From the NCBI GenBank assembly GCA_947474995.1, contig CANJNJ010000013.1, positions 1-53,665 on the forward strand: DNA of 53,665 nt, read 5' to 3'. The stretch's first letter is position 1, and each line of letters opens with the position of its first letter. Under the pieces are notes generated by a model, which was not told the origin of the DNA, made no database searches, and worked only from the letters and a program-made list of their open reading frames with translations. The translations under genes and the position numbers were made by a program. Origin of the DNA: Opitutaceae bacterium. GTDB lineage: Bacteria > Verrucomicrobiota > Verrucomicrobiia > Opitutales > Opitutaceae. This document shows positions 5,186-19,339 of this stretch, piece after piece.

Positions 5186-7573
5186 TCAGGGGACCCAGAA
5201 TTCAAACGTCGAACCTTGGCCAAATCTCGAAAACACCTTGATTTCGCCGCCCATGGCGTGGACGAGTTTGCGGCTGATGGGAAGGCCGAGACCGGTGCCC
5301 GCTTGGGACAACACCCGGCTGTTCGGCAATTGCACAAACGGCTCGAAGATCGACTCCAGTTGCTCGGCGGGAATTCCGACGCCGGAATCCTGCACCGAAA
5401 AATAGAGCCGCGGCTCGGTGCCCGCCGTGGCCCACGTGGTGATTTTCACACCGCCCGTCGGGGTGAATTTCACCGCGTTGCCCACCAGGTTGACGAGCAC
5501 ATGTTGCAGGTGCGTCGCATCGCCGTTCCACTCGAACTCGGGCGCGACGCGGGTTTCGAGGTTGAGGGAGAGTCCCGCCTGCGTCGCGGTGGCGGCCAGA
5601 ATCGTAATGGCGTCGGCGGCAACCGCCGCAGGGCGGAAAGGCTGGCGCGCGATCTTTACGCTGCCGGCCTCCAGCTTGGAGTAGTCGAGGACATCGGAGA
5701 TCACGGACATCAGGACCTGGCTTGATTTTTCGAGGATGCGCAACGTGCGCTGCTCCATTTCGGTCTTGGCCGTGGGGCTCATTTTCAAGAGCCCGGTGCC
5801 CGTGATGATCGAAGTAAGCGGTGTGCGCAGTTCGTGGCTCACGGTGGCGAGAAACACCGACTTGGCGCGATCGGCCGCCTGGGCCGACACCAAGGCGGCT
5901 TGAAGCTCCTGCGTCCGGATTTGCACCCGCGATTCCAGCTCCGCCAGCAGCAATTCGCGCTGGGTGCGCTCTGACTGCAGCCGGTCCGCCATCGCCGAAA
6001 GATGATGGATGAGCTCGTTGAACTCTTGCGGGAGCTGGAGTCCGCGGGTTTGGTCCAAGCGGCGGGAGTTGACGATCGGATCGCGGGCAAACGCCAGCAG
6101 CCCACTCCAGGCACGAAGAAAATCGCGGATGGACCACGCGGTGAAGCCGATGGCGACCAGGGCCGCCAGCAGCGCGACGGCGATCAAGGCGAGATAGCCC
6201 GTGGTGATGGGCGAAAGGATGTCACCCCACTTCCGCTGCACGGTAATGGTCCAGCCGGCGCGCGGCACGGTGACGCTCACGGAAAGGAAGCTGACTCTTG
6301 CGCCCCCGATCTCGGCCGTATAGCGGGTTGGGCTTCCGGCGTTGGGGGCGCTGATCAGATCGCCGACGGCAGTGCCGGCCAAGGGCGTGAGGGGCGCATA
6401 GTCGAGATCGGTTCCGCTGATCACCTTGAGCTTGCGGTCGGTCAATAGCACCCGCCAGGCGTTGCCGGACGCTTTCACCCGCACCAGGGGATCGAGCATG
6501 CTCGCCTGCCACGAACCTTCGATGATGCCGATGCGGTCGCCCGCGCGACTGATGACCGGAGCGCTGACGGCAAAGAGGATGTCTTGGCCGAAGCCGCGGC
6601 CGCGGAAAACGTCGGAGATATAGGCCGATCCAGTACTGAGGGGGACGGAAAAATATTCGCGGTCGGCAATCGACCGGACACCGGCGTCCAATTGCGCCCC
6701 CCCAGTTTCGCCCCGGATGGAGGCGGCGATGACGGCGCCACTGGCGTCAGCCGCCAGCATGGTAATGAAGTGGGGGGCTTGGGTGTGAGCGACCTTTAGG
6801 TCTGCGGCCACGCGATCGTTCCGCTCCATTTTGGCAAGATACGACTGGCGGGCGGCGGTGGTGCTGACCGCGTCTTCGCCGGTTTCCAATTCATGCCCGA
6901 TTTTCAGCGCCAGATTCTCGGCCGTGGTGGCGAGATTGTTGCGCGCTTCCACCAGTGCGCTTCGTTCAAATTGCCGGGCCGCCAGCAAACCGGCGATCAA
7001 CACCGGAAAGGTTCCGAACGCCAGGTAGCGCTTGAGCAGGAAACCACGAAAACTGTCGTCGGATTCTTGACCGACCCGCGGCGCGAAAAATGGAATAAAA
7101 CTCGTGGCGACGATGGCGATCCAGACAGCGATCAAGCCGTTGGCCACTTGCACCACCAGCGCTTGTTCAAACGAAGGATGCGGAATGAGGTAGACGTATT
7201 TGTAGAGGACCCAGGATACGGGTGTGCCGACGAGGCCCCAAAACATTAAATCGGCCAGCAAGTAGGACCGTACCCGTCTCCAGAACCAGCCCACCCAGAG
7301 CCCCTCGAGCGCGACAATTGTCGATGAATACGGCTGACCCCATTTGAGGGTGAGGACCACCAGGCTGGTGAGCAGTACGGGAATCGCCCATCTGGGGCCG
7401 AGCCGGCGCAATGCGATCCAGTAGAACACAATCCCGAGCACCAGCGAATGGCCCGAAAATAGCACCGGCGCAAACCAGTCGGCCAGCCCGGCGCAGCCAG
7501 CCAGCATCAGGATCCACAGCACACGACCAGCGGGCGAATGAGGAGCGCTCGCGTTGCCAGAGGCGGGGCTCAT
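5186..7573 (-). CDS. Membrane sensor histidine kinase (MASE-like N-terminus, Cache-like sensor, HisKA-HATPase)
   Basis: This 795-residue hybrid-free kinase begins with about six hydrophobic helices (residues 15-170) resembling MASE1-type sensory membrane regions. A periplasmic Cache-like domain follows (about 195-440, FITMLAADASGAVIAAS, DREYFSVP, ISDVFRGRGFGQDILF). After another TM segment (about 455-480) come a HAMP-like linker, a coiled coil (SERTQRELLLAELESRVQIR) and the HisKA box SHELRTPL with phospho-acceptor His580. The ATPase domain has the N box NLVGNAVKFTP, G1 DSGVGIP and G2 GTGLGLPIS. It lies 36 bp downstream of a response regulator gene, forming a two-gene operon. No receiver domain is fused. 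The ligand is unknown; Cache domains usually bind small metabolites. Confidence 0.9.
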   Translation of the reverse strand: MSPASGNASAPHSPAGRVLWILMLAGCAGLADWFAPVLFSGHSLVLGIVFYWIALRRLGPRWAIPVLLTSLVVLTLKWGQPYSSTIVALEGLWVGWFWRRVRSYLLADLMFWGLVGTPVSWVLYKYVYLIPHPSFEQALVVQVANGLIAVWIAIVATSFIPFFAPRVGQESDDSFRGFLLKRYLAFGTFPVLIAGLLAARQFERSALVEARNNLATTAENLALKIGHELETGEDAVSTTAARQSYLAKMERNDRVAADLKVAHTQAPHFITMLAADASGAVIAASIRGETGGAQLDAGVRSIADREYFSVPLSTGSAYISDVFRGRGFGQDILFAVSAPVISRAGDRIGIIEGSWQASMLDPLVRVKASGNAWRVLLTDRKLKVISGTDLDYAPLTPLAGTAVGDLISAPNAGSPTRYTAEIGGARVSFLSVSVTVPRAGWTITVQRKWGDILSPITTGYLALIAVALLAALVAIGFTAWSIRDFLRAWSGLLAFARDPIVNSRRLDQTRGLQLPQEFNELIHHLSAMADRLQSERTQRELLLAELESRVQIRTQELQAALVSAQAADRAKSVFLATVSHELRTPLTSIITGTGLLKMSPTAKTEMEQRTLRILEKSSQVLMSVISDVLDYSKLEAGSVKIARQPFRPAAVAADAITILAATATQAGLSLNLETRVAPEFEWNGDATHLQHVLVNLVGNAVKFTPTGGVKITTWATAGTEPRLYFSVQDSGVGIPAEQLESIFEPFVQLPNSRVLSQAGTGLGLPISRKLVHAMGGEIKVFSRFGQGSTFEFWVP

Positions 7574-7609
7574 GAAATGGGCGGAGCGAGGGAAACGGTC
7601 GCCAGCGGG

Positions 7610-8017
7610 TTAAAAATCCGCACGGCCGGAGGCGGAATTAAGGTAACGCGTGACCGTGGCGATGAGTTTGCCGGGGTCGAAAGGTTTGGTGAGATATCCG
7701 TCGGCCCCCGCCTTGAGCCCAGCCTCCACGCGTTCGTCTTGCGCGTGGGCTGACATGATGACGACCTTGGTGTTTTGGTGCCGGGGCGAGGAACGGATCC
7801 AGCCGAGCAGCCAGTTGCCGTCCCCATCGGGTATCGAAAGATCGGTGATGACCAAGTCCACGTCGTTCGCCTCGAGAAAGCGGCTCGCTTCGTGCCCGCT
7901 GGCGGCCGTGAGCACCGTGGCACCGGTAAAACTGAGGAGATCCGTGGTCGTCTCGCGCACATTCAAATCGTCTTCCACGAATAGAATGATGAGATTTTTT
8001 TGGCCGTTGGCAGTCAT
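7610..8017 (-). CDS. Single-domain response regulator (CheY-like receiver)
   Basis: This receiver domain of about 135 residues has the acidic pocket FVEDD, phospho-acceptor Asp in LVITDLSIPDGDG (about D59), the switch Ser in VVIMSAH and the conserved Lys in LTKPFD. It has no output domain, so it likely acts by protein contact or as part of a phosphorelay with the histidine kinase encoded 36 bp downstream. I preferred the ATG at 8017 because it places the first beta strand near the N-terminus; the frame stays open to 8059. Confidence 0.9.
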   Translation of the reverse strand: MTANGQKNLIILFVEDDLNVRETTTDLLSFTGATVLTAASGHEASRFLEANDVDLVITDLSIPDGDGNWLLGWIRSSPRHQNTKVVIMSAHAQDERVEAGLKAGADGYLTKPFDPGKLIATVTRYLNSASGRADF

Positions 8018-8371
8018 GCGTATTACATCGGCATCATGAGCCGCGAGCCGCTCCCCCATGAAAATTTTCGGCTAATAGCCGGGGGGAACGTTCTCGCCTG
8101 ATTAGACAGGATTGTTCGGGAGGTAGTCAACTGGCGACGCGAACCAGTATGGCAGAAGTATCACACGGCCTACCCTACTTCGGGCAGCGACGCCGCGGGC
8201 ATCTCGCGCGAAGCGAAGCCCAAACGCCTCGGGCCCGCACCAGCTTGTCCTTTCCGGTGACTCCGCTGAACCGCAATCGGGCGATAAGTCGGCCCGGGCT
8301 TTGAACGGCGAACGCCCGACCCCGGCCCGTTTGACCGCGGAGATTTCTGTCCGGAGAAAAGACGAACGAGC
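8018..8371. other. Non-coding gap with no recognised element
   Basis: This stretch lies between the response regulator start and the hairpin after the aldolase gene. The open frames here read against or across the aldolase and have no recognisable product. I see no repeat family that occurs elsewhere in the window. It must contain the promoter of the two-component operon, but no convincing box pair stands out. Confidence 0.4.
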
Positions 8372-8399
8372 GCGCCGGAAGGCTGACGCCTTCCGGCGC
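8372..8399 (-). terminator. Perfect hairpin after the aldolase gene
   Basis: GCGCCGGAAGGC / GCCTTCCGGCGC forms a 12-bp perfect stem with a TGAC loop, 10 bp beyond the stop of the minus-strand aldolase gene. A short T-run (CTTTTC) follows on the minus strand after about ten bases, which fits an intrinsic terminator of moderate quality. Confidence 0.55.
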
Positions 8400-8408
8400 T
8401 CGACCGAA

Positions 8409-9419
8409 TCAGGCTTTCTTGGGGGCGGGAGCCGGGGGTGTTTCAATCCGGTTGCCCGACGCGTCGTAGCCCGTGTTGGTCGCGTTGCGCGTGCCTTGAA
8501 ACAGCCGGTAGCCGGGGCGATCCTGCCAGCTTGAGGGGCCGGCCAGAATCTTGCCGTGCTTGAGCACGGAATCCCGGACGAGTTTTTCGCGCGCATTGTA
8601 GCTCGCGTCGCCATCGCGGTCGCCCGCCTGCCAGCCGAAATCGTTGCTCGCGACCATGACGATATCGATGCCGGGAACCTCGTCGAGAATGGTGTCGATG
8701 AGGCCGACGCCCTCCGGGTTCTCGATCATGATCAGGATCAGGATATTATTATTGGCGTTCGTCTGGTACTTGGGGCCATACAGGGCGTTGAACTGGCCGC
8801 CACCCGAGCTGCGATGCCCCCAGGGCTTGGCGTTGGGATTGTCGCGATGGCCGATCGGCCATTTGGCAAACTTGACCGCATTCCGCGCTTCTTCGACGTC
8901 GTCAACCATGGGGACGATGATACCGAGCGCACCGGCATCGGTGGCCTTCTGGATGTCGCCTTCGAACGCACCGGGCACGCGGACAAAGGGGATGCAACCG
9001 GCCTCCACGACCACCTTGATGATGTCCTCCGTTTCACGCCACGTCAGGCGGGAGTGCTGCATCTCGATCCAGATGAAATCCTGACCGACGCAGGCTTTCT
9101 TCGCCGCCTCGAGGTCAGGTTGAATGATCGTGTTGCTGAAGATTTGCTTTCCCTCCTTCAACTTCGTGATGACCGTGTTGAAGGTGACCGAATTAGCCGG
9201 GAAGCCCGGGCCAACTCGTCCGCCGGCACCGCCGGCGGACGCAGCCGGAGCCGGCGCGGCGGCCTTGAGCGCCGGTTGCTGGGCGCTGGCGACCGAAGTT
9301 AACGCGACCAAGCCGGCCGTCGCGGCGAGGAAATCGCGCCGGTTGATGGGCGGCGTACCGGCCGCGGCGTTGGTCTCGTTCGGGGGAGTAGCGTCGTTCG
9401 TGGGGGTGAGGTTGTTCAT
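8409..9419 (-). CDS. Tat-exported HpcH/HpaI-family aldolase
   Basis: This 336-residue protein has the class II pyruvate-aldolase fold, which cleaves or forms 4-hydroxy-2-oxoacids with a divalent metal. Visible signatures are DFIWIEMQHS, the Arg-containing PFVRVPG, GALGIIVPMVDDVEEAR, the metal-ligand Glu in MIENPEGV and the Asp in ASNDFGWQAG. The N-terminus has a twin-arginine signal (NRRDFLAATAGLVAL) followed by an Ala/Pro-rich stretch. The usual cytoplasmic HpaI enzyme has no such leader. An exported aldolase fits the periplasmic theme of the window. The next gene (minus strand, upstream) is an exported MBL-fold hydrolase about 750 bp away, so co-transcription is uncertain. The substrate is unknown. 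Confidence 0.85.
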   Translation of the reverse strand: MNNLTPTNDATPPNETNAAAGTPPINRRDFLAATAGLVALTSVASAQQPALKAAAPAPAASAGGAGGRVGPGFPANSVTFNTVITKLKEGKQIFSNTIIQPDLEAAKKACVGQDFIWIEMQHSRLTWRETEDIIKVVVEAGCIPFVRVPGAFEGDIQKATDAGALGIIVPMVDDVEEARNAVKFAKWPIGHRDNPNAKPWGHRSSGGGQFNALYGPKYQTNANNNILILIMIENPEGVGLIDTILDEVPGIDIVMVASNDFGWQAGDRDGDASYNAREKLVRDSVLKHGKILAGPSSWQDRPGYRLFQGTRNATNTGYDASGNRIETPPAPAPKKA

Positions 9420-9589
9420 AACAATGCCAGTGATCGGATCGGATATCGGGGTGGAGGGAAAAACGGGAAATCAAACCCGCAAACCAAATTCAAATCTTGG
9501 TTTCGTCCTTTTCCAATAGCGGTGCGCAGCTGAACAACGCAAGAAATGAACGCGGAGGCGGGGCCAGGCCAATGGGTCGGGCATCGGAG

Positions 9590-9690
9590 CACAGGATGAA
9601 CAGGATTTACAGGAGGGTGGAAAAGCGGAGCGCGGCCGTGGTTAAATGTGCGCATCCGGTTCATCCGGTTTGCATCCTGTCCAGGGATGG
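9590..9690. repeat. Family B inverted repeat, copy 1
   Basis: The left arm ACAGGATGAACAGGATTTAC and a right arm rich in CATCCGGTTCATCCGG/CATCCTGTCC are imperfect complements around a core of about 35 nt. Other copies lie at 20347-20437 and 44451-44552. Confidence 0.65.
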
Positions 9691-9713
9691 GGGTCTTTCT
9701 TGTGGGTACGGCC

Positions 9714-9743
9714 AAAGCGGCACCAGGTCGCCGCACTCCGAAC
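9714..9743 (-). repeat. REP-like element C, copy 1 (GGAG head)
   Basis: Read on the minus strand this is GGAGTGCGGCGACC then TGCCGC, i.e. a GGAG head followed by a GC hairpin, the layout of REP sequences mobilised by RAYT transposases. Near-identical copies lie at 20463-20494, 46545-46576 and 48363-48393, with a degenerate one at 48230-48250. Confidence 0.65.
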
Positions 9744-9888
9744 ATTGGCTCGCTCCGTGGGCGAAGCGGCGGACGGGTCGGTGCACGTGCCCTGCCCCGA
9801 CCAGCCGGGTGCTGCGCCCCCGCTGGTCCACCGCACGTCATCTCCCCCCTGCCCTCAGGTCGAGCACGGTCGGCCTCACAACTCATCA

Positions 9889-10030
9889 AAATCCTGGTAG
9901 TCCATCTTGATAATCTCCGTGTAAGTGCCGGCGTTGAACGCGATCTCCCGCTCCTCCGTCAGGCTCGCCGCGACATAGACGGGCAGTCCGTAGAGGCGGC
10001 CGAAGGGCGGCGGGAGCCTGCAGCATCTCG
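9889..10030 (-). pseudogene. Possible remnant: 3' end of an unidentified coding region
   Basis: On the minus strand, residues reading GRLYGLPVYVAASLTEERE and ending in MDYQDFDEL before a stop look like genuine protein, unlike the surrounding repeat DNA. The frame runs upstream into a family G repeat at 10051-10146, so the 5' part is missing. It could be the tail of a gene broken by repeat insertion. I cannot assign a family. Confidence 0.25.
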
Positions 10031-10050
10031 GGCAGGCCGGCGCGGCGCCG

Positions 10051-10146
10051 GAGTAAGGGGTAAGGTTTAAGGAGTAAGGGGAAAAACAGTACGGCCGCGT
10101 CATCGACCTTCGGCTCGCCTCACACTTTACACCTTAAACCTAAATC
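10051..10146. repeat. Family G inverted repeat, copy 1
   Basis: The arms GGTAAGGTTTAAGGAGTAAG and CTTTACACCTTAAACC are complementary around a core containing CATCGACCTTCGGCTCG. The core and arms recur at 29140-29226 and 39977-40066. It lies just after the MBL-fold gene, where it may also act in transcript ending. Confidence 0.7.
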
Positions 10147-10172
10147 TAGCCGCGGGCTCACCGCGGCGATTC

Positions 10173-11120
10173 CTAGGGCCGCTCCGAAAGGTTGCGATAA
10201 ATAGCGCGGATCGACGTGGCGTTCGACGCCCGGCTGGCGCCCCACGGCTGGTGTTTGGACAGGTCGATTTCCTGCACGAGGCTGTCGGCCGTCTTGCCGG
10301 CTTTGAGGCCGGCCCGCACCTGCACCACGATGTCCGCCAGATATTCCCGCTGGCCGCGGAGCGCGTCGGTCGTACCGACCCGCCCATGGCCCGGCACGAC
10401 GGTCTTCACGTCCCACTGCGCCAGCAGATCGAGGGCCTTGACCCAATGATCAGGATCCGCGTCGCGGTCGCCGGTGTTGTTGCCGCTCGGCCAATTCACA
10501 CAGAGATCGCCGGTCACCAAAAGTCTCTCCTTCGGCAGGTAGGCGACGGAGTCGCCAATCGTGTGACCCGGCCCCACGCGAATCAACTCCACCCGATGCT
10601 CGCCGTCGTCAAAGACCAGGCGGTCTTCGAAGAGGAGCGTCGGGTGCTCGAGCTGGTATCCTTTGGTGCGGGTCTCCGCGGCGACGGCCTTGTCGTAGTC
10701 CGTCGCCTCCGGCCGCTGCCCGCGATTGAAGACCTGATTCCTCCAGTCGGTTTCGCCCTTGCTGCGGGATTCGGCCGCGGACTCCCGCGAGCTCACGATG
10801 GTTGCCCCCGCTTCCACGAAGATCCCATTCCCGAACGCGTGATCGGCGTGGTAGTGGGTGTTGAACACGAACCGGATCGGTTTGGTGGTGGTGCGCCTGA
10901 TCTCCGGCAGGATCTCCCGCGCGCCCCAGGGGAAGTTGGCGTCGATCACCAGGACGTAATCCTTGAAGATCACCCACGTGCAGTTCGCGGGGCGGCGGAT
11001 CACGGTGTCGCCCTGCCAGAAGTAAACTCCGGGGGCGAGTTGGGTGACCTTCTGGTCCTGCCCGAAGGCCAGAGGCAGGGCGGCGAGGGCGAACAGGGGC
11101 GCGAGGAAAATTGGTTTCAT
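10173..11120 (-). CDS. Exported metallo-beta-lactamase-fold hydrolase
   Basis: This 315-residue zinc hydrolase has a Sec signal (MKPIFLAPLFALAALPLAFGQ). The metal-binding motif is HYHADHAFGN (HxHxDH). Further ligands lie in VGPGHTIGDSVAYLP (His), LLVTGDLCVN (Asp) and VVPGHGRVG (His), in family order. The overall pattern, with ITVWVIFKDYVLVIDANFPWGAREIL-like beta strands near residue 50, resembles exported MBL proteins that accompany PQQ or sulfur-oxidation enzymes (SoxH-like and 'quinoprotein relay' hydrolases). This fits the many quinoproteins in the window. The actual substrate is not deducible. It is followed by a family G repeat and precedes a family A repeat on its 5' side. Confidence 0.85.
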   Translation of the reverse strand: MKPIFLAPLFALAALPLAFGQDQKVTQLAPGVYFWQGDTVIRRPANCTWVIFKDYVLVIDANFPWGAREILPEIRRTTTKPIRFVFNTHYHADHAFGNGIFVEAGATIVSSRESAAESRSKGETDWRNQVFNRGQRPEATDYDKAVAAETRTKGYQLEHPTLLFEDRLVFDDGEHRVELIRVGPGHTIGDSVAYLPKERLLVTGDLCVNWPSGNNTGDRDADPDHWVKALDLLAQWDVKTVVPGHGRVGTTDALRGQREYLADIVVQVRAGLKAGKTADSLVQEIDLSKHQPWGASRASNATSIRAIYRNLSERP

Positions 11121-11168
11121 GGCGGGCAGCGTAGGGTTTAAGGCAGCCAGACAGTGGCCGTATCCAAT

Positions 11169-11279
11169 GACAAATTTTCAATGCTCAATTTTCCATCTCC
11201 CGCCCGAACCGACGGAACCACCGCGAACGCGAAGCGAGCTCGCCGGCGCGGATTGAAAAGCGCCCATGGAAAATCTGTC
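11169..11279. repeat. Family A inverted repeat, copy 1 (degenerate)
   Basis: The left arm GACAAATTTTCAATGCTCAA and the right arm GATTGAAAAG...GGAAAATCTGTC are imperfect complements around a GC-rich core of about 50 nt. It sits between the MBL-fold gene start and the lipoxygenase-like gene end. Confidence 0.6.
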
Positions 11280-11326
11280 ATCGCTAACCAGCAGGCTGAC
11301 CCGAACACCGAGGCTGCCGGCCCTCG

Positions 11327-12811
11327 TCAGAAGCAGATGCTTTGGGCCATTTGCGTCAACGGCACCAGGGCCAGGCCCTCCTGCTCAAGCTTTGCTTCCA
11401 CCGCCTTCAATTCAGCGCAGAACCGTCCTTCGATCGCTTGCAGGTCGGGATCCGTGAAACCATAGGTCAGATGGGCGAGGTTGTTGGGAAATTTCTCCTC
11501 ATAGGAGAATTTGACGAAGACATCGGTGAAATTCTCGAACTTGGCGACATTGAGCGGATCGAACATCGCTGCGGGCTGAATTGGTTCCCCGTCCTCCAAG
11601 CGGTGGCGGAGCATGGGGCAGGAGTAGTTTCTGAATAATTTATAATAGGTATGATGGTCGGAGGAATGCAGAACCGATACCTGCCAGATAAAGGCGGCCA
11701 GCAGGTCCTTGCGATCAAACGCGGCCAAGCTTGCCGGGATGTATTGGTCGAGGGCCGTGAAAAGCTGATCCACCAGATCCAGTTCCAAGCGGTCGCCCAA
11801 GTCTTCAATAAACTGGCGGATGGCCTGATAGTAGGCGCCAACAAAGCGATGGTAGGGCAGTTCGGGGTTCAGCCGGGGCGGGGCGGAAAATTCTCCATCC
11901 AATTTGTAGAAATCCACCGTTCGCGCCTGATTGTTTTCCACGAAAGTGTTTCCGGTCATGGCAAAGGCCTGGAACGGATTAAGTCGTTTGCTCCACTTGT
12001 CCTGGTTGTTCGAGGTTCGTCGAATCCGCAGGGCCTGATGGTTGATCCGCATGGTAAACCGGGTATGAACAGACATAATCCGGTACAAGACGCTGTCGCG
12101 AGGGACGGCATTGAAAACGAGCGCGGAAACGACGCAGGGAAGCTGAAAATGCACCCAGGAATGCCCGATGCCCACGTTGAAATAGCTGACGCAGGTCATC
12201 GCGTGGATTTTTGCCTGCTCGTAGCTGGGATCGCCTTTCCCGATGCGACGGTTATGGCGGGTAATGATGAGAATCTCCTTCGTGTTGTGATTAATCTCCA
12301 GTCCCCGAACCTCGAAAAAGTAACCGGGAAATAGCTCCACGTTCATCAACTGGGCCATATTCATATGCTCGACTCCGGCCCGATCCGTGGGTCGCAGGTA
12401 AAAGGAATTGCCCGTGTTGGTGATGCTGCGATAAAAATGCTCGTCCGAGGGAGTTGTCACCGTCGAGGCCTCGCCGTTCACCCGAAAAAACTTTCGGTAG
12501 TAGCTCTCATAGCTCTCCTTCGTCAGGCGCAGATAGACGGGGCTGCGTCGGAGTAAAAAATCGTATTCAAGCGACCAGGGAATTAAGGTGACACCATAGA
12601 TGTTCCGCCACCTGACGATCTGGGCTTTTTCTTCCGTGGCCCCGCGCGCCTTGGACTTCGCTTTTGAGAGTGCCAGCGCGTAGCCGAAATCGAGCATTAA
12701 CTTTATGACTCCGGTCATGGACCTGGCGGCGAGGGAGTTTGAGACGGCCATGTGAGGATGGAGTCGGACGGTTAGTGAATGCGTTTCCCAGGCGGATTTA
12801 AATATATCCAA
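11327..12811 (-). CDS. Divergent lipoxygenase-like protein (no PLAT domain)
   Basis: This 494-residue protein aligns by eye with the catalytic domain of lipoxygenases, non-heme iron or manganese enzymes that dioxygenate polyunsaturated fatty acids. From AK (200-201) to HSWVH (217-221) the spacing equals that of plant enzymes. His217/His221 would be the first metal pair in HxxxH form, as in fungal Mn-lipoxygenase. PRDSVLYRIMSVHTRFTMRI (237-256) mirrors the conserved HP-LY-LL-PH-R-TM-IN segment. The second pair is His382/His386 in IWQVSVLHSSDH, matching the IW..S.LHAAVN segment. The C-terminus QSICF matches NSISI, with Phe instead of the usual Ile carboxylate ligand. It lacks the PLAT domain and any signal peptide, and is shorter than plant or animal enzymes. 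It stands alone between repeats. Function is inferred. Confidence 0.65.
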   Translation of the reverse strand: MDIFKSAWETHSLTVRLHPHMAVSNSLAARSMTGVIKLMLDFGYALALSKAKSKARGATEEKAQIVRWRNIYGVTLIPWSLEYDFLLRRSPVYLRLTKESYESYYRKFFRVNGEASTVTTPSDEHFYRSITNTGNSFYLRPTDRAGVEHMNMAQLMNVELFPGYFFEVRGLEINHNTKEILIITRHNRRIGKGDPSYEQAKIHAMTCVSYFNVGIGHSWVHFQLPCVVSALVFNAVPRDSVLYRIMSVHTRFTMRINHQALRIRRTSNNQDKWSKRLNPFQAFAMTGNTFVENNQARTVDFYKLDGEFSAPPRLNPELPYHRFVGAYYQAIRQFIEDLGDRLELDLVDQLFTALDQYIPASLAAFDRKDLLAAFIWQVSVLHSSDHHTYYKLFRNYSCPMLRHRLEDGEPIQPAAMFDPLNVAKFENFTDVFVKFSYEEKFPNNLAHLTYGFTDPDLQAIEGRFCAELKAVEAKLEQEGLALVPLTQMAQSICF

Positions 12812-13191
12812 CGGCCGATCTGTGCTCCGCAGCGTTTCATGGACATTGAAGGTAAAGCGGTTTCATCGCGAAGACAGTCGGGATCAAAATACCGGCTCTT
12901 CCGGGGGGTGGAGTTGGGGGAAAATCGGCGCAGGGGATGGTACAGATTAGGGTCGCCGCTCCGGCCGCCACGAGAAAAAACATTCGAAGCACGCCAATTC
13001 GGCGGAATTTGCCTTTTACAGACTACCTAATCGCAAAATCGCGAACCACACCGCAAACAGAGATGCCATAAGCAGGCTCTCGGCCATCCAGGCCTAGGTC
13101 GCGCCCCCGGATTAAAAATCACCTATCCGCCGGCGGCAGCCCGGCCACTTTCGTTTGCGCTACGGGCCGCGCGGGCTGCAGTCTCGCCGTT
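12812..13191. other. Non-coding gap between divergent genes
   Basis: This divergent spacer of about 380 bp lies between the lipoxygenase-like gene and the MFS transporter. It contains none of the repeat families found in other gaps. The promoters of both genes should lie here, but I cannot define them. Confidence 0.4.
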
Positions 13192-14505
13192 GTGAGCCAT
13201 GCCGTGCCCGCCAATCCGGATTCCCGCGCCGGAACCATCGCGCCGACGCCGGGGCACACCGGAGGCCCGCCCGACTCCGCCGGGGGCTCCGGATATGTCG
13301 AACGGGGCACACCGGAGTTTCGTCGCGCGGCCGTGGCGCTGTTCGCGGCGGGGTTCGCCACGTTTGCCCTTCTCTACTGCGTCCAGCCCCTGATGCCCGT
13401 GTTCGCGCGGGAATTCGGGCTCAGCGCCGCCACCAGCAGCCTCGTCCTCTCGGTGTCGACGGCCACGCTGGCCGCGGGACTACTGGTGACCGGGCCGATC
13501 TCCGATGCCGTGGGCCGCAAGCCCGTGATGGTCGCGGCGCTCCTGGCCGCGTCGCTCTTCACGCTCGCGAGCGTGGCCATGACCACGTGGCACGGCATCC
13601 TCGCGATGCGCGCGCTGCTGGGACTTTCGCTGTGCTGGCTCGCGGCCGTGGCGATGACGTACCTCAGCGAGGAAATCCACCCGCGCGTGCTCGGGTACGC
13701 GATGGGGCTCTACGTCGGCGGCACCGCCATCGGTGGCATGGGCGGCCGGCTGATCGCGGGCGTGGCCGTGGATTTTGTCTCGTGGCGCACCGCCCTGGGT
13801 GCGCTCGGCGGGCTCTCGCTCGTGGCGACCCTGGTGCTCTGGCGGACCGCGCCGGCCTCCCGGCATTTCCGGCGGACGCCACTGCGGCTGCGCGCGGTGG
13901 GGCACGCGTTCCAGCTGCATCTCCGCGATGCGGCGCTGCCCTGGCTTTTCCTCGAGGGTTTCCTGCTGCTCGGCGGTTTCGTGACACTGTTCAACTACAT
14001 CACCTACCGCCTGCTCGCGGCGCCGTATCACCTGAGCCAGGCCACCGTCGGCTGCCTCTCGGTGGTGTACGTGGCCGGCGTCTTCACGTCAGCGAGGATC
14101 GGCGAACTGGCCGACCGCCTGGGCCGTCGCCGGGTGTTTCGCGTGGTCATCGCGGTGATGCTGGCGGGGGCGCTGGTGACGCTGGCGCGACCGCTGTGGG
14201 TCATCCTCACTGGCATGGTGATTTTCGCGACCGGCTTCTTCGGCGCCCACTCGGTGGCGAGCAGTTGGATCGGGCGCCGCGCCCGGGTCGCCCGCGCCCA
14301 GGCGTCGTCGCTTTACCTGTTGTGCTATTACCTGGGTTCGAGCCTGGCCGGCACGGCTGGCGGGTACTTCTGGCATGTGGCGGGCTGGACGGGAGTGGTG
14401 GGATTCATCGCCTCCCTGCTGACCGTGGCGCTGGCGGTCGCTGGGTGGCTGATGCGCGTGCCGCCGCTGCCGGAGCCGAGTCCGCGTGCGACAACTGGCG
14501 CCTGA
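13192..14505 (+). CDS. Major facilitator superfamily transporter (YnfM/AraJ-like)
   Basis: This 437-residue inner-membrane protein has about 12 hydrophobic helices. The loop between TM2 and TM3 has GPISDAVGRKPVM, the MFS G-x-x-D-R/K-x-G-R-K/R motif; the corresponding loop of the second half is IGELADRLGRRRVFRV. FALLYCVQPLMPVFAREFGL at the start of TM1 is typical of the YnfM-like efflux group. The apparent start is GTG at 13192, because no ATG lies before TM1; this gives a Pro/Gly-rich tail of about 40 residues that may be partly untranslated. The gene stands alone, divergent from the lipoxygenase-like gene. The substrate is unknown; efflux is more likely than uptake for this subgroup. Confidence 0.9.
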   Translation: MSHAVPANPDSRAGTIAPTPGHTGGPPDSAGGSGYVERGTPEFRRAAVALFAAGFATFALLYCVQPLMPVFAREFGLSAATSSLVLSVSTATLAAGLLVTGPISDAVGRKPVMVAALLAASLFTLASVAMTTWHGILAMRALLGLSLCWLAAVAMTYLSEEIHPRVLGYAMGLYVGGTAIGGMGGRLIAGVAVDFVSWRTALGALGGLSLVATLVLWRTAPASRHFRRTPLRLRAVGHAFQLHLRDAALPWLFLEGFLLLGGFVTLFNYITYRLLAAPYHLSQATVGCLSVVYVAGVFTSARIGELADRLGRRRVFRVVIAVMLAGALVTLARPLWVILTGMVIFATGFFGAHSVASSWIGRRARVARAQASSLYLLCYYLGSSLAGTAGGYFWHVAGWTGVVGFIASLLTVALAVAGWLMRVPPLPEPSPRATTGA

Positions 14506-14603
14506 AAGGGGCGCGGCGGGATGGTGGCATGCGGAATCGGATTTCGTTACAGGTTTCGATCCGATCTCGTCCCGATATTCCTAGCTTCCCACAAATTGCC
14601 GAT

Positions 14604-14713
14604 TACCGATTTTCAATGCTCAATTTTCAATCTCACCAAACGCACGCGCCGCGGCGTAAATCCACGAGAACGACAGCGTCTCCTGATTGAAAATTACCAA
14701 TTGAAAATCTGTC
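14604..14713. repeat. Family A inverted repeat, copy 2
   Basis: The left arm ACCGATTTTCAATGCTCAAT (about 14605-14632) and right arm GATTGAAAATTACCAATTGA (14685-14713) are complementary with few mismatches. The core has AATCCACGAG..CGACAGCGTC, shared with copy 6 at 34552. The rest of the gap from 14506 to 14934 shows no gene. Confidence 0.75.
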
Positions 14714-14934
14714 GTCGCAAATTGCTCAAACCGCTCACGACGACAGAAGATCCGTAACAGCCCGCCGGAGCACGACGCGCCAATTCGACGGGGCCGGCCT
14801 GTCACCTGCTCGCCTGATCACGCCCGTCCGATCGCGGGCGCCCAACTTGGGGTTGATTTGGCGCGGGGCGGAACATTACACTTTTGGTGGTAGCGTTCAC
14901 CGCCCGGCCGGGTGGGATCGCTGCAAAGCCCCCA

Positions 14935-17802
14935 ATGACTGTCACCCCCTCTTTTTTGCGTGGGAATCCCCTTCGGTGGGGCGCCACTCTCGTCGCCTTC
15001 GGTTCGCTGCTGTGGCTTGCCCTTACGCCGATGCGCAGCGCCCCCGCCCTTGGCCCCGAGGTCTTCGCCTTCACCGACCGCTATTGTTCAAATTGTCACA
15101 ACGAGGTGGACAAGGAAGGCGGACTCGATCTGACGAGCTTCAAGGATCAACTCACCGATCCGAATGCCTTTCTGACCTGGGTCCGCGTGCACGATCGCGT
15201 CCAGAATGGCGAGATGCCGCCGAAGGAAAAGAAGCGGCCGGATCCCGCCGCGGCGGCCGCGTTCACCAAGAGCCTGTCCTCCTCGCTGGTCGCCTTCGAG
15301 GACGACGCCACGACCCGTTTCGGCCGGACGCAACGGCGCCGGCTCAATCGCGTGGAGTTTGAGAACTCGCTGCAGAATATTTTCCAGGCGCCGTGGATTC
15401 TGGTGAAGGATCTCCTGCCCGAGGACGGCGTCGCGGCGAATTTCAACAAGGTGTCCCGCGCCCTCGACGTCTCGCCGGTGCACGTGGAACGCTACCTGAA
15501 TGCCGCCGAGACCGCCATCAAGCAGGTCCTGGCGGTGGAATATGCGCGGCCCGCGACGAAAAAGGTACGCTATTGGGCCCGGGAGAACATCACGCTGGCC
15601 GACTCGATGGGGCATCCGAGCCGGGGCAAGTTTCCCGTCCTCGATTCCGGACCCGATCTTCCCGTCATCACCCGCACCGCGCCCTTGACCGTCGGCGACA
15701 AGGATTCCGAAAAACGCGAGCACGAGGCGATGGGCTGGACCGGAAGCCATTTCCAACCGGCGCTGCAGACGCATTGGAATAATTTTTATTCGCCGGTGGC
15801 GGGCCGCTATAATTTTCGCTTCAGCGCCTACACGATTTGGGTCGGACCCAATGGCACGCGCCACCCCACCCAATCGGCGGCCGGTACGACCCCAAAGGGC
15901 GGCGATTCCATGGCGCTCGCCTTTATTCAGCCGGAATGGGCCGTGCCCAATCACTACGACATCTCGGCGGGACGCCGCAACGAGCCGCTTCACGTCTATG
16001 CCCGCCTCATCCCCAATGCGGCACACCGGCTCGGCACGTTTGAACTCACGCCCGAACCGCAGGTTTTCGAACTCCCGAACGTGTGGCTGAACCTCAATGA
16101 ATTCATCATCACGGATGCCGCGCGCTTCTTCCGTTCGCGGCCTTTCACGCTCAACGACAATTACACCAATAAGCTGGCGCAGCCGGACGGCCAGCCGGCC
16201 GTCGCTTTCCGGTGGATGGAAATCGAGGGACCGCTGTACGACGAGTCGTCGCGCGCCGGCTATCGGCTGCTCTTTGGGGATCTCCCCTTGAAGAAAGTCG
16301 CCGCTGAGGCATCCGGCGTCCGAATCGAGATTCTGGCTCCTTCCAATTCGAACGAGAGCCGCGGCGGACGCGGTGGACGGGGCGCAAAAAAGGGCGGCGC
16401 CAGCGCGGCGGGCGAGCTCCCGGGGCGCGCGGCGCAACGGGCCGCGATCCTGGGCTCGCCGATTCCCGGCGGAGTCATCGCCCCGGTGATGGTCGACGTC
16501 GAATCCGCCAACCCGCAAGGAGACGGCGAAAGACTGTTGCGGACCTTCATGAGCCGGATCTTCCGGCGTCCGGTCGCGGAGCCGGAAGTGCAGCGTTTTC
16601 TGGGTTTGTTCAAACAGCAGCTGACCGAAGGCAACGGTTTCGCCACGTCGTTGCTGGCGACCTATACCGCCGTGATCGCTTCGGAGGGTTTCGTTTATCT
16701 CGACGAGGACGGTCCCGGGAAACTCGATGACTTTGCGCTCGCGACCCGCCTGGCGTTTCTGCTGGGCAATTCGGAACCCGACGCGACGCTGCGCGCGGTG
16801 GCCGCCAAGGGAGAGTTGCGTCAGCCCGCGGTCCTGCGCCGCGAAGTGGATCGGCTGCTGGCGGACGCGAAGTCCGACCGGTTCATCACCGCGTTTCTCG
16901 ACTACTGGCTCGACTTGCGGAAGATCGAGGACACCGCGCCCGACGTTGCCCTCTACAGCGACTATTTCATCGACGATTCGCTGACGGAGGCGGCCCTGGC
17001 AGAAACCCGCATGTTTTTCGGCGACCTCGTGCGCCGGAACCTGCCGGCGCGCACCGTCGTGGATTCCGATTTCACGTTCCTCAACGAACGGCTGGCCACG
17101 CACTATGGAATTCCCGACATCGATGGGGTCGCAATGCGGCGGGTGGCCCTGCCGGCCGGCAGCGTGCGGGGCGGCCTGATGACGCAGGCGAGCGTCCTGA
17201 AGGTCACCGCCAACGGCACCACCACTTCCCCCGTGCTCCGGGGCAAATGGGTCATGGAGCGCATCCTCGGGTATGAAGCGCCGCCTCCCCCGGCCGCGGT
17301 GCCGGCGGTCGAGCCCGACGTGCGCGGCGCCACCACGATCCGCCAGCAACTCGACAAGCACCGGGCGGACGAAAGCTGCGCGATGTGTCACCGGAACATC
17401 GACCCGCCGGGTTTCGCGCTGGAGAGCTTCGATGTCTTCGGCGGCTTCCGGACCAGGTATCGCGCGGTTAACGCGGCCGGACAAACGCCCGAGGTCGGTT
17501 TCGGCCACAATGGCTGGCCGCTCACCTATTTCTACGCGCTGCCGGTCGATCCGAGCGGCCAACTCGCGGACGGCCGCGCCTTCAACGACGTGCGCAGCCT
17601 GAAGGCCCAGCTGCTGAACGATGAGACCCAGATTGCGCGGAATATTGCGCGGCAGCTGATGGTTTATGCCACGGGCGCACCGGTGCGCTTCAGTGATCGG
17701 GCCACCCTCGAGCGCATCCTCGAAAAAACGCGCGCGAGCGGTTATGGCATTCGCAACCTGCTTATCGAAATTATCCAGAGCGACCAGTTCTTGAATAAAT
17801 AA
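14935..17802 (+). CDS. DUF1592/DUF1588/DUF1587/DUF1595/DUF1585 c-type cytochrome protein, copy 1
   Basis: This exported protein of about 955 residues belongs to the PVC-type multidomain family. A hydrophobic leader (residues 15-32) precedes the heme site CSNCH (51-55) in DRYCSNCHNEVDKEGGLDL. Then come a DUF1587-like RLNRVEFENSLQNIF, a long middle region, an RG/K-rich linker (SRGGRGGRGAKKGG), a DUF1595 segment (MSRIFRRPVAEPEVQRF), DUF1592 (ATRLAFLLGNSEPD), DUF1588 with GTTTSPVLRGKWVME and a second heme site CAMCH, and C-terminal DUF1585. The ATG at 14935 is preferred; the frame opens from a TTG at 14884. It is followed by a DUF1552 gene, its usual partner. It presumably handles electrons in the periplasm; the family function is unknown. 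Confidence 0.9.
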   Translation: MTVTPSFLRGNPLRWGATLVAFGSLLWLALTPMRSAPALGPEVFAFTDRYCSNCHNEVDKEGGLDLTSFKDQLTDPNAFLTWVRVHDRVQNGEMPPKEKKRPDPAAAAAFTKSLSSSLVAFEDDATTRFGRTQRRRLNRVEFENSLQNIFQAPWILVKDLLPEDGVAANFNKVSRALDVSPVHVERYLNAAETAIKQVLAVEYARPATKKVRYWARENITLADSMGHPSRGKFPVLDSGPDLPVITRTAPLTVGDKDSEKREHEAMGWTGSHFQPALQTHWNNFYSPVAGRYNFRFSAYTIWVGPNGTRHPTQSAAGTTPKGGDSMALAFIQPEWAVPNHYDISAGRRNEPLHVYARLIPNAAHRLGTFELTPEPQVFELPNVWLNLNEFIITDAARFFRSRPFTLNDNYTNKLAQPDGQPAVAFRWMEIEGPLYDESSRAGYRLLFGDLPLKKVAAEASGVRIEILAPSNSNESRGGRGGRGAKKGGASAAGELPGRAAQRAAILGSPIPGGVIAPVMVDVESANPQGDGERLLRTFMSRIFRRPVAEPEVQRFLGLFKQQLTEGNGFATSLLATYTAVIASEGFVYLDEDGPGKLDDFALATRLAFLLGNSEPDATLRAVAAKGELRQPAVLRREVDRLLADAKSDRFITAFLDYWLDLRKIEDTAPDVALYSDYFIDDSLTEAALAETRMFFGDLVRRNLPARTVVDSDFTFLNERLATHYGIPDIDGVAMRRVALPAGSVRGGLMTQASVLKVTANGTTTSPVLRGKWVMERILGYEAPPPPAAVPAVEPDVRGATTIRQQLDKHRADESCAMCHRNIDPPGFALESFDVFGGFRTRYRAVNAAGQTPEVGFGHNGWPLTYFYALPVDPSGQLADGRAFNDVRSLKAQLLNDETQIARNIARQLMVYATGAPVRFSDRATLERILEKTRASGYGIRNLLIEIIQSDQFLNK

Positions 17803-17860
17803 ATCCCGAACGTCGTGCCATCTTGGATCGTGAAATCTGAATTTCTAAATTCACAAACGC

Positions 17861-17942
17861 ATCGTAGCCCTGCGCGAGAGCGCAGGGACCGGCGGCATTC
17901 ATCACCCAACGCAGTCCCGCTGCTCTCGCCGCGGGCTACATC
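17861..17942. repeat. REP-like pair D (GTAG heads), copy 1
   Basis: On the plus strand GTAGCCC is followed by the hairpin CCCTGCGCGAGAGCGCAGGG. On the minus strand a second GTAGCCC is followed by a hairpin of the same type. The two face each other, the BIME-like arrangement of two opposed REPs. A single half-copy lies at 51063-51091. It sits between the DUF1592 and DUF1552 genes, so it would lie inside their transcript. Confidence 0.7.
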
Positions 17943-17998
17943 AGTAATTTCGGCCCGAATTACCCGCCTCTTTTAAGAGTTTAACAGCTCATCGATTA

Positions 17999-19339
17999 AT
18001 GAAAACGCCCCCCGCTTACGGCCCCTACATCAGCACCCGCCGGCCGCTGTCCCGCCGGCATTTCCTGCGCGGGGCGGGAGTCGCGCTCTCGCTGCCGTTC
18101 CTCGATGCGATGCTCCCGACCTTCGCGCGCGCGCAGGCCTCCTCGTCCCCGCTCGCGCCCGGTGCCAAGCCCCGGCGCATGCTCGCCATCATCAATAATC
18201 TCGGATTCCTGGGTTCGAACTTCTCGCCCAGCGGCGAAGGCAGCGATTACAAGCTCTCGCCCTATCTCGAGCTGATCAAGGACCACCGCCAGGACTTCAC
18301 GGTCCTTTCCGGCGTCTCCCTCCCCAACGTCTACGGCGGCCATCCCACCGAGGTCGCCTGGCTGACGGGCGCGCCGAGCCCGGCGAGCAGTTCGTTCCGC
18401 AACACGATCTCGCTCGATCAAGTCGTGGCGGGAAAGATCGGAACGCTGACCCGCTTCCCCTCGCTGAGTCTGGCGGTCAACATCCGCGACCGCTCGCTCT
18501 CCGTCAGCGGCACCGGCGTGACCATTCCGCCGGAAGACCGGGCCGCCAACGTCTTCAAGCAACTCTTCGTCCAGGGCACGGCCGCCGAGGTCGAGACCCA
18601 GATTCGCCAGCTCAACACCCGTCGCAGCATTTTGGACACGGTCTCGGGTCACGTGAAAGATCTGGAGAAGAACCTGGGCACGCCGGATCGCGAACGGATC
18701 GATCAATATTTCACCAGCGTGCGCTCGCTCGAGAGCCGGTTGCAGGCGTCGCAGGAATGGGAAAAGAAGCCGAAGCCCGCCGTGACCGCGCCCGTGCCGG
18801 TGGACCCGGCGAATCCGGCGCAATACTTTGAAAAGCTGAAGATCATGTACGATCTGGCCGTGCTCGCGTTGCAGACGGATTCGACCCGGGCCATCACCCT
18901 CTTCTCCGCCTGTGCGAACACGCCCGCGGTCGCGGGCAATTTCGACCTGGCAATCACCGAAGCCTATCACGGCCTCTCACACCACGGCCGCTCGCCGGAC
19001 AAGATGGCGCAGCTGCGGGTGCTGGACGTCGAGAACTTCAAGCTCTTCAACAAGCTCCTGGCCGGCATCAAGGCCGTGAATGAAAACGGGGAATCGCTGC
19101 TGGAGCGCACGATGGTGCTTTACGGCTCGAACCTCGGTGACGGCAACGCGCACTTGACCGACAACCTGCCGACCATTCTCGCCGGGGGCGGGTTCAAGCA
19201 CGGCCGGCACCTGGTCTTCGATTCGGCGCGCAATTATCCACTGACCAACCTGCACCTGACCATGCTGCACCGGCTGGGGATCGAAGCCGACAAGTTCTCC
19301 TCCTCGACCGGCACCTTCCGCGGGTTGGAGATGAGCTGA
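17999..19339 (+). CDS. Tat-exported DUF1552 protein, copy 1
   Basis: This 446-residue protein begins with a twin-arginine signal (SRRHFLRGAGVALSLPFLDA). The first mature block has KPRRMLAIINNLGFLGSNF, then QDFTVLSGVSLPNVYGGHP and AWLTGAPSP. Near the end are TMVLYGSNLGDGNAHLTDNL and PTILAGGGFKHGRHLVFD. These blocks define DUF1552, a sulfatase/alkaline-phosphatase-like family related to DUF1501. It almost always sits beside a DUF1592 protein in Planctomycetes, Verrucomicrobia and Acidobacteria, as here (about 200 bp downstream of one). The reaction is unknown. The second copy at 24865-26208 is closely similar throughout. Confidence 0.9.
   Translation: MKTPPAYGPYISTRRPLSRRHFLRGAGVALSLPFLDAMLPTFARAQASSSPLAPGAKPRRMLAIINNLGFLGSNFSPSGEGSDYKLSPYLELIKDHRQDFTVLSGVSLPNVYGGHPTEVAWLTGAPSPASSSFRNTISLDQVVAGKIGTLTRFPSLSLAVNIRDRSLSVSGTGVTIPPEDRAANVFKQLFVQGTAAEVETQIRQLNTRRSILDTVSGHVKDLEKNLGTPDRERIDQYFTSVRSLESRLQASQEWEKKPKPAVTAPVPVDPANPAQYFEKLKIMYDLAVLALQTDSTRAITLFSACANTPAVAGNFDLAITEAYHGLSHHGRSPDKMAQLRVLDVENFKLFNKLLAGIKAVNENGESLLERTMVLYGSNLGDGNAHLTDNLPTILAGGGFKHGRHLVFDSARNYPLTNLHLTMLHRLGIEADKFSSSTGTFRGLEMS

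Follow-up and report, generated by a model that had tools for sequence, protein, structure and literature searches.

The minus-strand gene at positions 11327–12811 of the window (the whole 53,665-nucleotide stretch of Opitutaceae DNA analysed here) very probably encodes a compact lipoxygenase (LOX)-superfamily protein from a deep, unnamed bacterial clade, whose members would share the LOX fold, a single metal ion, and LOX chemistry. What is new is the aromatic-terminus branch of LOX, compact LOX without a PLAT domain being already known. The features are as follows, ligands being predicted from alignment.

11327..12811, minus strand: compact lipoxygenase-superfamily protein, 494 aa, TTG start, with an ATG at residue 21 also possible
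12023..12223, minus strand: first metal-ligand helix and following segment, residues 197–263, best local match to a LOX profile
12161..12163, minus strand: His217, predicted metal ligand 1 (sLOX1 H499), His in 8/8 members
12149..12151, minus strand: His221, predicted metal ligand 2 (sLOX1 H504; HxxxH spacing), His in 8/8
11666..11668, minus strand: His382, predicted metal ligand 3 (sLOX1 H690), His in 8/8
11654..11656, minus strand: His386, predicted fourth-position ligand (sLOX1 N694 column), His in 8/8
11330..11422, minus strand: C-terminal helix and tail, FCAELKAVEAKLEQEG...AQSICF, residues 464–494, with the Phe494 carboxylate as predicted metal ligand

The open reading frame (ORF) reads from 12811 to 11327 and specifies 494 residues, the candidate start codons being the TTG at residue 1 or an ATG at residue 21 or later. 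GC at codon positions 1, 2, and 3 is 0.543, 0.380, and 0.691, the frame ranks top of six against the codon usage of the remaining window ORFs, and no open run exceeds 243 codons in 500 shuffles, as against 494 codons here. Base composition by codon position and the length of the frame together mark the ORF as a coding gene. In its product no signal peptide is evident on inspection by eye, and the Pfam scan finds no PLAT domain.

Taken alone, the window protein matches no family in Pfam or NCBIfam at E ≤ 10 and only three unrelated chains, at chance level (E 0.65–1.3), among PDB sequences. Single-sequence searches for relatives in 200 genomes of the family, 387 of the phylum, and 27 of the genus return only the window gene itself, and neither scans for exact peptides in genome and viral contigs nor plasmid and phage searches with the query reveal a relative; plasmid searches with two of the relatives described below are likewise without a match. 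The Pfam family of canonical bacterial LOX, PF00305, has no match in the 387 phylum genomes, a result of little weight alone, with none in 14 control genomes either. A degenerate-codon pattern, H-x3-H-x27-H-x-R-x-T-x-x-I-N, picked out 25 stretches in genome contigs, all of which were read and none of which is a relative; judged against the alignment of the relatives the pattern was too strict, because from its second His to its third they are shorter by one residue or more, and the R or the T-x-x-I-N is missing from most of them. Six pattern-matching stretches in the scanned contigs, five of them viral, yielded no relative by tblastn, and no LOX was confirmed in viral contigs.

Statistical tests on the single sequence range from weak to strong. 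With hhalign against a first LOX profile, the best local match covers residues 197–263, with H217 and H221 near register (P = 0.055); with hmmsearch and a five-LOX profile, 5 of 2000 shuffles outscore the protein. Against another LOX set, the local mode of hhalign places residues 449–480 at the LOX C-terminus, a score exceeded by one of 200 shuffles, and the global mode finds nothing (P = 0.65). When the alignment to an eight-LOX profile is anchored at the C-terminus, none of 1200 shuffles reaches the query score (z 5.4 and 6.9), nor does any of 119 real ORFs at three gap settings; at a fourth setting, with cheap long gaps, 13 of 117 real ORFs score as well (15 of 119 when two non-LOX ORFs that had been set aside are counted). 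After masking of 20 motif residues, the score is reached by 0 to 2 of 300 shuffles, across three gap settings, and by 0 to 1 of 300 column-permuted profiles (z 2.8 to 4.4). At the level of alignment, the LOX resemblance of the protein exceeds chance. AlphaFold2 run on the single sequence without an alignment gives a pLDDT of 34.2 for the whole protein and 34.0 for residues 190–494, values too low to count for or against the LOX fold with one metal cavity that the preliminary description expected.

Relatives come from other phyla. In a sample of 247 genomes, by general taxonomy presumably Bacteroidota (it shares its phylum with a Saprospiraceae record), the query matches three at E ≤ 0.01, one of which was kept; in a sample of 349, which we take on the same grounds to be Pseudomonadota (it shares its phylum with a Pseudomonas record), five genomes match and four were kept. 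The matches L046, L047, L052, and L061 (genome G1182) were dropped as chance, with E values of 0.0008–0.01 over 46–107 matched positions; the appearance of the translated sequences also counted against L046, L047, and L052, and L061 has a frame of 37 codons and a stop codon within the matched stretch. Profile searches around two relatives matched 3 of 17 genomes, the starting genome included, which added two new members, and 2 of 18 genomes, namely the starting genome and one that was dropped. The compact family thus comprises the query and seven relatives, in genomes G997, G1185, G1188, G592, G659, G917, and G909; its members are 386–517 residues long, and the query shares 19–24% overall identity with the relatives. 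In the sample of 349, the compact clade occurs in four genomes and PF00305 in one, small numbers that suggest that the compact branch is at least as common there as PF00305 and that the Pfam and NCBIfam thresholds miss it.

It is the family profile that carries the assignment. Built from the seven relatives with the query excluded (alignment A7), it gives the query 102.8 bits (E 9.1e-29 at Z = 100000), and no shuffle out of 2000 scores above 3.7 bits. The next scores belong to LOX of Nostoc (37.1 bits, E 8e-9) and Acaryochloris (24.9 bits, E 4e-5), followed by five other bacterial LOX at 9.6–16.4 bits; soybean LOX-1 scores only 4.7 bits, and manganese LOX (Mn-LOX) is not among the best 24 rows listed. 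Against PDB sequences, the same profile gives 58 matches at E ≤ 10, 54 of them LOX, including all of the first 51, with a best E of 3.6e-13 over profile positions 102–472 of 489. A six-member profile that includes the query matches only LOX in the PDB (41 of 41, best E 2.3e-10), and hhalign aligns it to five canonical bacterial LOX with a probability of 97 (E 1.1e-10) over 340 columns, reaching the C-terminus. PF00305 is the top Pfam family in four of the five relatives scanned at E ≤ 1, at 14.0–17.9 bits, which is below its curated cut-off of 23.6 bits; no relative passes that cut-off, two near copies scanned at E ≤ 0.001 match no Pfam family, and the query matches none. Because the seven relatives bridge the query to LOX as intermediate sequences, the LOX call can be regarded as settled, and the window protein is, by alignment, a very distant LOX homologue, recognized via the family profile rather than from the query alone. 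The preliminary description had called it a stand-alone, highly divergent LOX-like protein, a view that the profile score and the leading place of LOX among the PDB matches bear out; the LOX-family profile search that it proposed stays below Pfam detection with the query alone and succeeds through the seven-relative profile.

In a tree of 19 rows, the eight members form one clade (support 98/97), which is recovered in 96% of 200 bootstrap trees, in agreement with the separate compact subfamily that had been suggested. The query and G909 sit on long branches, the end branch of the query measuring 1.95. G787, which carries the canonical LOX L038, gives no match in a translated profile search, and the compact clade is therefore well separated from canonical LOX.

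The ligand anatomy is family-wide. In the joint alignment, the first two His lie in an HxxxHF motif in all eight members, and the residue before the fourth His is Asp in seven members and Glu in one. Three His positions of the LOX type (H217, H221, and H382) are thus present as predicted metal ligands, and H386 would fill the fourth position. In a 2026 review (PMC13059375), the fourth LOX ligand is given as His, Asn, or Ser and the terminus as usually Ile and very occasionally Val. The window protein ends at the LOX-aligned position with an S-I-x-x tail like that of LOX, but with Phe as the last residue. The chain end is S-I-x-F in six members and S-I-x-Y in two, with no other ending among the eight, and the aromatic C-terminal residue is accordingly, as far as the alignment goes, a hallmark of the clade and no oddity of one protein. 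The residues first pointed out, H217, H221, S240, H382, H386, the 247–257 segment, and the terminal Q-S-I-C-F, are all in the translation; the terminal Phe, listed there as a deviation, does differ from the known Ile or Val, but F/Y in 8/8 members means that it is not peculiar to this protein.

Between the ligand pairs, the query segment 247–257 reads S-V-H-T-R-F-T-M-R-I-N and is soon followed by a hydrophilic RRTSNNQDK stretch. S240 replaces the His of the HP motif, which is retained in G592 and G659. In the joint alignment, most members lack 3 residues in the region of the Coffa site and Leu clamp; when this gap is allowed, Leu stands in the clamp column in six of eight members, the query (L261) among them. 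A gapless reading instead puts Arg264 of the query at the clamp, an assignment since withdrawn, which leaves Leu261 as the candidate clamp residue. According to PMC12383934, fungal LOX with an altered clamp bind metal but have only nominal activity; thus, a LOX fold is no guarantee of LOX activity.

Comparison with known LOX places the clade apart from each established type. Canonical bacterial LOX (PF00305; Pseudomonas 15-LOX 4g32/4rpe, Nostoc, Rhodococcus, and Pantoea) share the order of ligand segments, the W/Y-x-x-A-K helix, the H...IN segment, and the C-terminal helix, but have HxxxxH, Asn in the fourth position, and a terminal Ile in place of the HxxxH, His, and F/Y of the compact family. 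In length the query falls approximately 90–205 residues short of the five bacterial LOX compared, and it has no above-cut-off Pfam match. Animal LOX (ALOX12 and 5-LOX; 8ghb, 3o8y, and 3rde) are the best PDB matches of the family profile, and the HSSDH of the query corresponds to HSSNH in 3rde, which also has a fourth-ligand His; in contrast to animal LOX, the query has HxxxH spacing, an aromatic terminus, and no PLAT match. Fungal Mn-LOX (5fno and 5fx8) share the HxxxH spacing of the first two ligands, but carry Asn as fourth ligand and Val at the terminus, and do not group with the compact clade in the tree, where branches are long. The HxxxH-type spacing has a bacterial parallel in the LOX of Myxococcus fulvus, for which PMC6612559 lists His372 and His376. 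The cyanobacterial mini-LOX NsLOX of Nostoc sphaeroides, an active enzyme of 455 aa, is compact and stand-alone like the query, but its ligands are H192/H197 (HxxxxH), H367, N371, and Ile455 (PMC10177866). Membership in the Mn-LOX, despite the fitting HxxxH, or in the mini-LOX was rejected, because the fourth ligand and the terminus differ: His and Phe replace Asn and Val in the former case and, along with HxxxH for HxxxxH, Asn and Ile in the latter. Of the novelty first seen in a compact protein without PLAT, the separate clade stands; being compact and free of PLAT is not in itself new, given the mini-LOX of 455 residues in print (PMC10177866).

Two plasmid-borne proteins are worth recording beside these. 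The Aureibacter plasmid protein at L011:2089–3927 (plus strand), annotated as lipoxygenase and next to hmpA, has GH....WH in common with the query, and the tree places it beside the compact clade (87/90, on long branches in both cases). Where the clade has His as third and fourth ligand, however, it carries G and M, and its last residue is Thr instead of F/Y; by its sequence it is possibly an inactive LOX. The Nostoc plasmid LOX at L010:1640–3478 (plus strand) has Gly both as its last residue and in the column of the fourth ligand, and its gene overlaps the one annotated after it; it would be either truncated at its end or an unusual variant.

In the window, the gene stands by itself. A metallo-β-lactamase-fold gene (10173–11120, minus strand) lies 206 bases downstream, and an MFS transporter gene (13192–14505, plus strand) and PSCyt/DUF1592 and DUF1552 genes are also neighbors; these neighbors include no obvious operon with the LOX-like gene, and no cyclase was found among those scanned. 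Histidine kinase and response-regulator genes occupy 5186–8059 (minus strand), at a distance of over 3 kb from the LOX-like gene, with aldolase-family and metallo-β-lactamase-fold genes in between. G+C falls to 0.53–0.55 per 500-base window over 11250–12999, a dip that covers the LOX-like gene and is the lowest within 7000–18000, where the remainder is 0.57–0.72. This dip is consistent with recent lateral acquisition. Given that the GC of the gene is 0.538, which is 8.6 points below the 0.624 of the window, and that the single-sequence search finds it in 1 of 27 genomes of the source genus, a laterally acquired, solitary copy is suggested.

Several relatives sit in a different setting. In G997, G659, and G1188, a gene for a kinase–AAA–GAF–class III cyclase protein follows the compact LOX gene on the same strand after 6, 34, and 6 bases (the 34-base gap of G659 assumes a start codon picked by eye), and in G592 the compact LOX gene overlaps the preceding 7TM-DISM–cyclase gene by 7 bases. 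A class III nucleotide cyclase is thus head-to-tail with the compact LOX in four of the six relatives with readable flanks, which represent three lineages because G997 and G1188 are close. G917 and G909 have no cyclase, their neighbors being an RHS/ADP-ribosyltransferase-like gene and two T2SSE-family ATPases, respectively, and the contig of G1185 stops 52 bases past the compact LOX gene, leaving that flank unreadable. The adjacency, in what appear to be operons, is an association and not a statistical test. G997 and G1185 also encode a second LOX, 721 aa long, whose gene and that of the compact LOX are transcribed divergently (PF00305 44.9 and 39.0 bits for the longer protein); these Bacteroidota genes, at L064:4243–6405 and L069:1045–3210 (both minus strand), show HxxxxH, HxxxN, and a terminal Ile. 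The RHS-repeat gene at L067:137–2293 (plus strand), approximately 600 bases upstream of the compact LOX gene in its Pseudomonadota genome, has an ADP-ribosyltransferase-like end (Scabin-like and Pertussis_S1 Pfam matches), and its product looks like a polymorphic toxin. Neither an aromatic-terminus LOX clade nor a LOX–cyclase operon was found among the literature titles and abstract openings listed, in which subscription journals are thinly represented.

The fold, metal, chemistry, and substrate of the window protein we infer from sequence. The protein most likely folds as a LOX catalytic domain without a detectable PLAT and would be cytosolic, with one non-heme Fe or Mn ion held by H217, H221, H382, H386, and the Phe494 carboxylate. 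The metal(III)-hydroxide would take a hydrogen from an unsaturated lipid, to which O2 would then be added, giving a lipid hydroperoxide. More tentatively, and with rather less than even confidence, the compact clade may be a lipid-oxidation signaling module, in which a cytosolic LOX with an aromatic metal-binding terminus is made together with a cyclase receptor. The partner would be a kinase–AAA–GAF or 7TM-DISM receptor bearing the class III nucleotide cyclase, the oxidized lipid or the LOX-like protein itself would set the cyclic-nucleotide signal, and the copy in the window would be a solitary side branch gained by lateral transfer; a role in cyclic-nucleotide signaling is possible for the relatives alone. 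Oxylipin signaling is known in Pseudomonas aeruginosa, with oxylipins derived from oleic acid (PMC6377657, in part).

The family could also consist of LOX-fold metalloproteins with other chemistry or a regulatory role, in which the metal site is kept and the remodeled pocket and aromatic terminus would suit another substrate, or would turn the protein into a sensor of lipids or redox state that acts on the partner cyclase. The changed Coffa and clamp region, the hydrophilic stretch near the H...IN segment, and the four relatives in apparent cyclase operons speak for such a role, which we nevertheless consider less likely than not: the ligand positions, kept in 8/8, are best explained by catalysis, the clamp column holds Leu in six of eight members once the deletion is allowed for, L261 included, and the scanned neighbors in the window include no cyclase. 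That the gene is a decaying or inactive LOX remnant, acquired laterally, is less probable still. Its restriction to one of the 27 genus genomes, its low GC, its long end branch, and the loss of the HP motif would fit decay, whereas an intact 494-codon frame with a codon-position signature, and ligand positions and a terminal motif preserved despite such low identity to the relatives, would not be expected of it.

That the motifs agree by chance, in an unrelated helical protein that is not a LOX at all, has hardly any probability left. Such a reading could draw on the lack of any family match for the query alone and on the weak local tests (one of 200 and 5 of 2000 shuffles higher, with nothing in global mode), but it is contradicted by the intermediate sequences, whose profile reaches the query on one side and places LOX first in the PDB on the other. 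The reading as a member of the compact LOX clade is the one with which the alignments, the tree, and the conserved ligand positions are most consistent.

Bacterial LOX are thought to be rare, occurring in <0.5% of sequenced species (PMC6612559, excerpt). An aromatic residue as the C-terminal metal ligand, if true, would give LOX a kind of coordinating terminus not seen before, and through the cyclase operons a direct connection of lipid oxidation to cyclic-nucleotide signaling in bacteria becomes testable.
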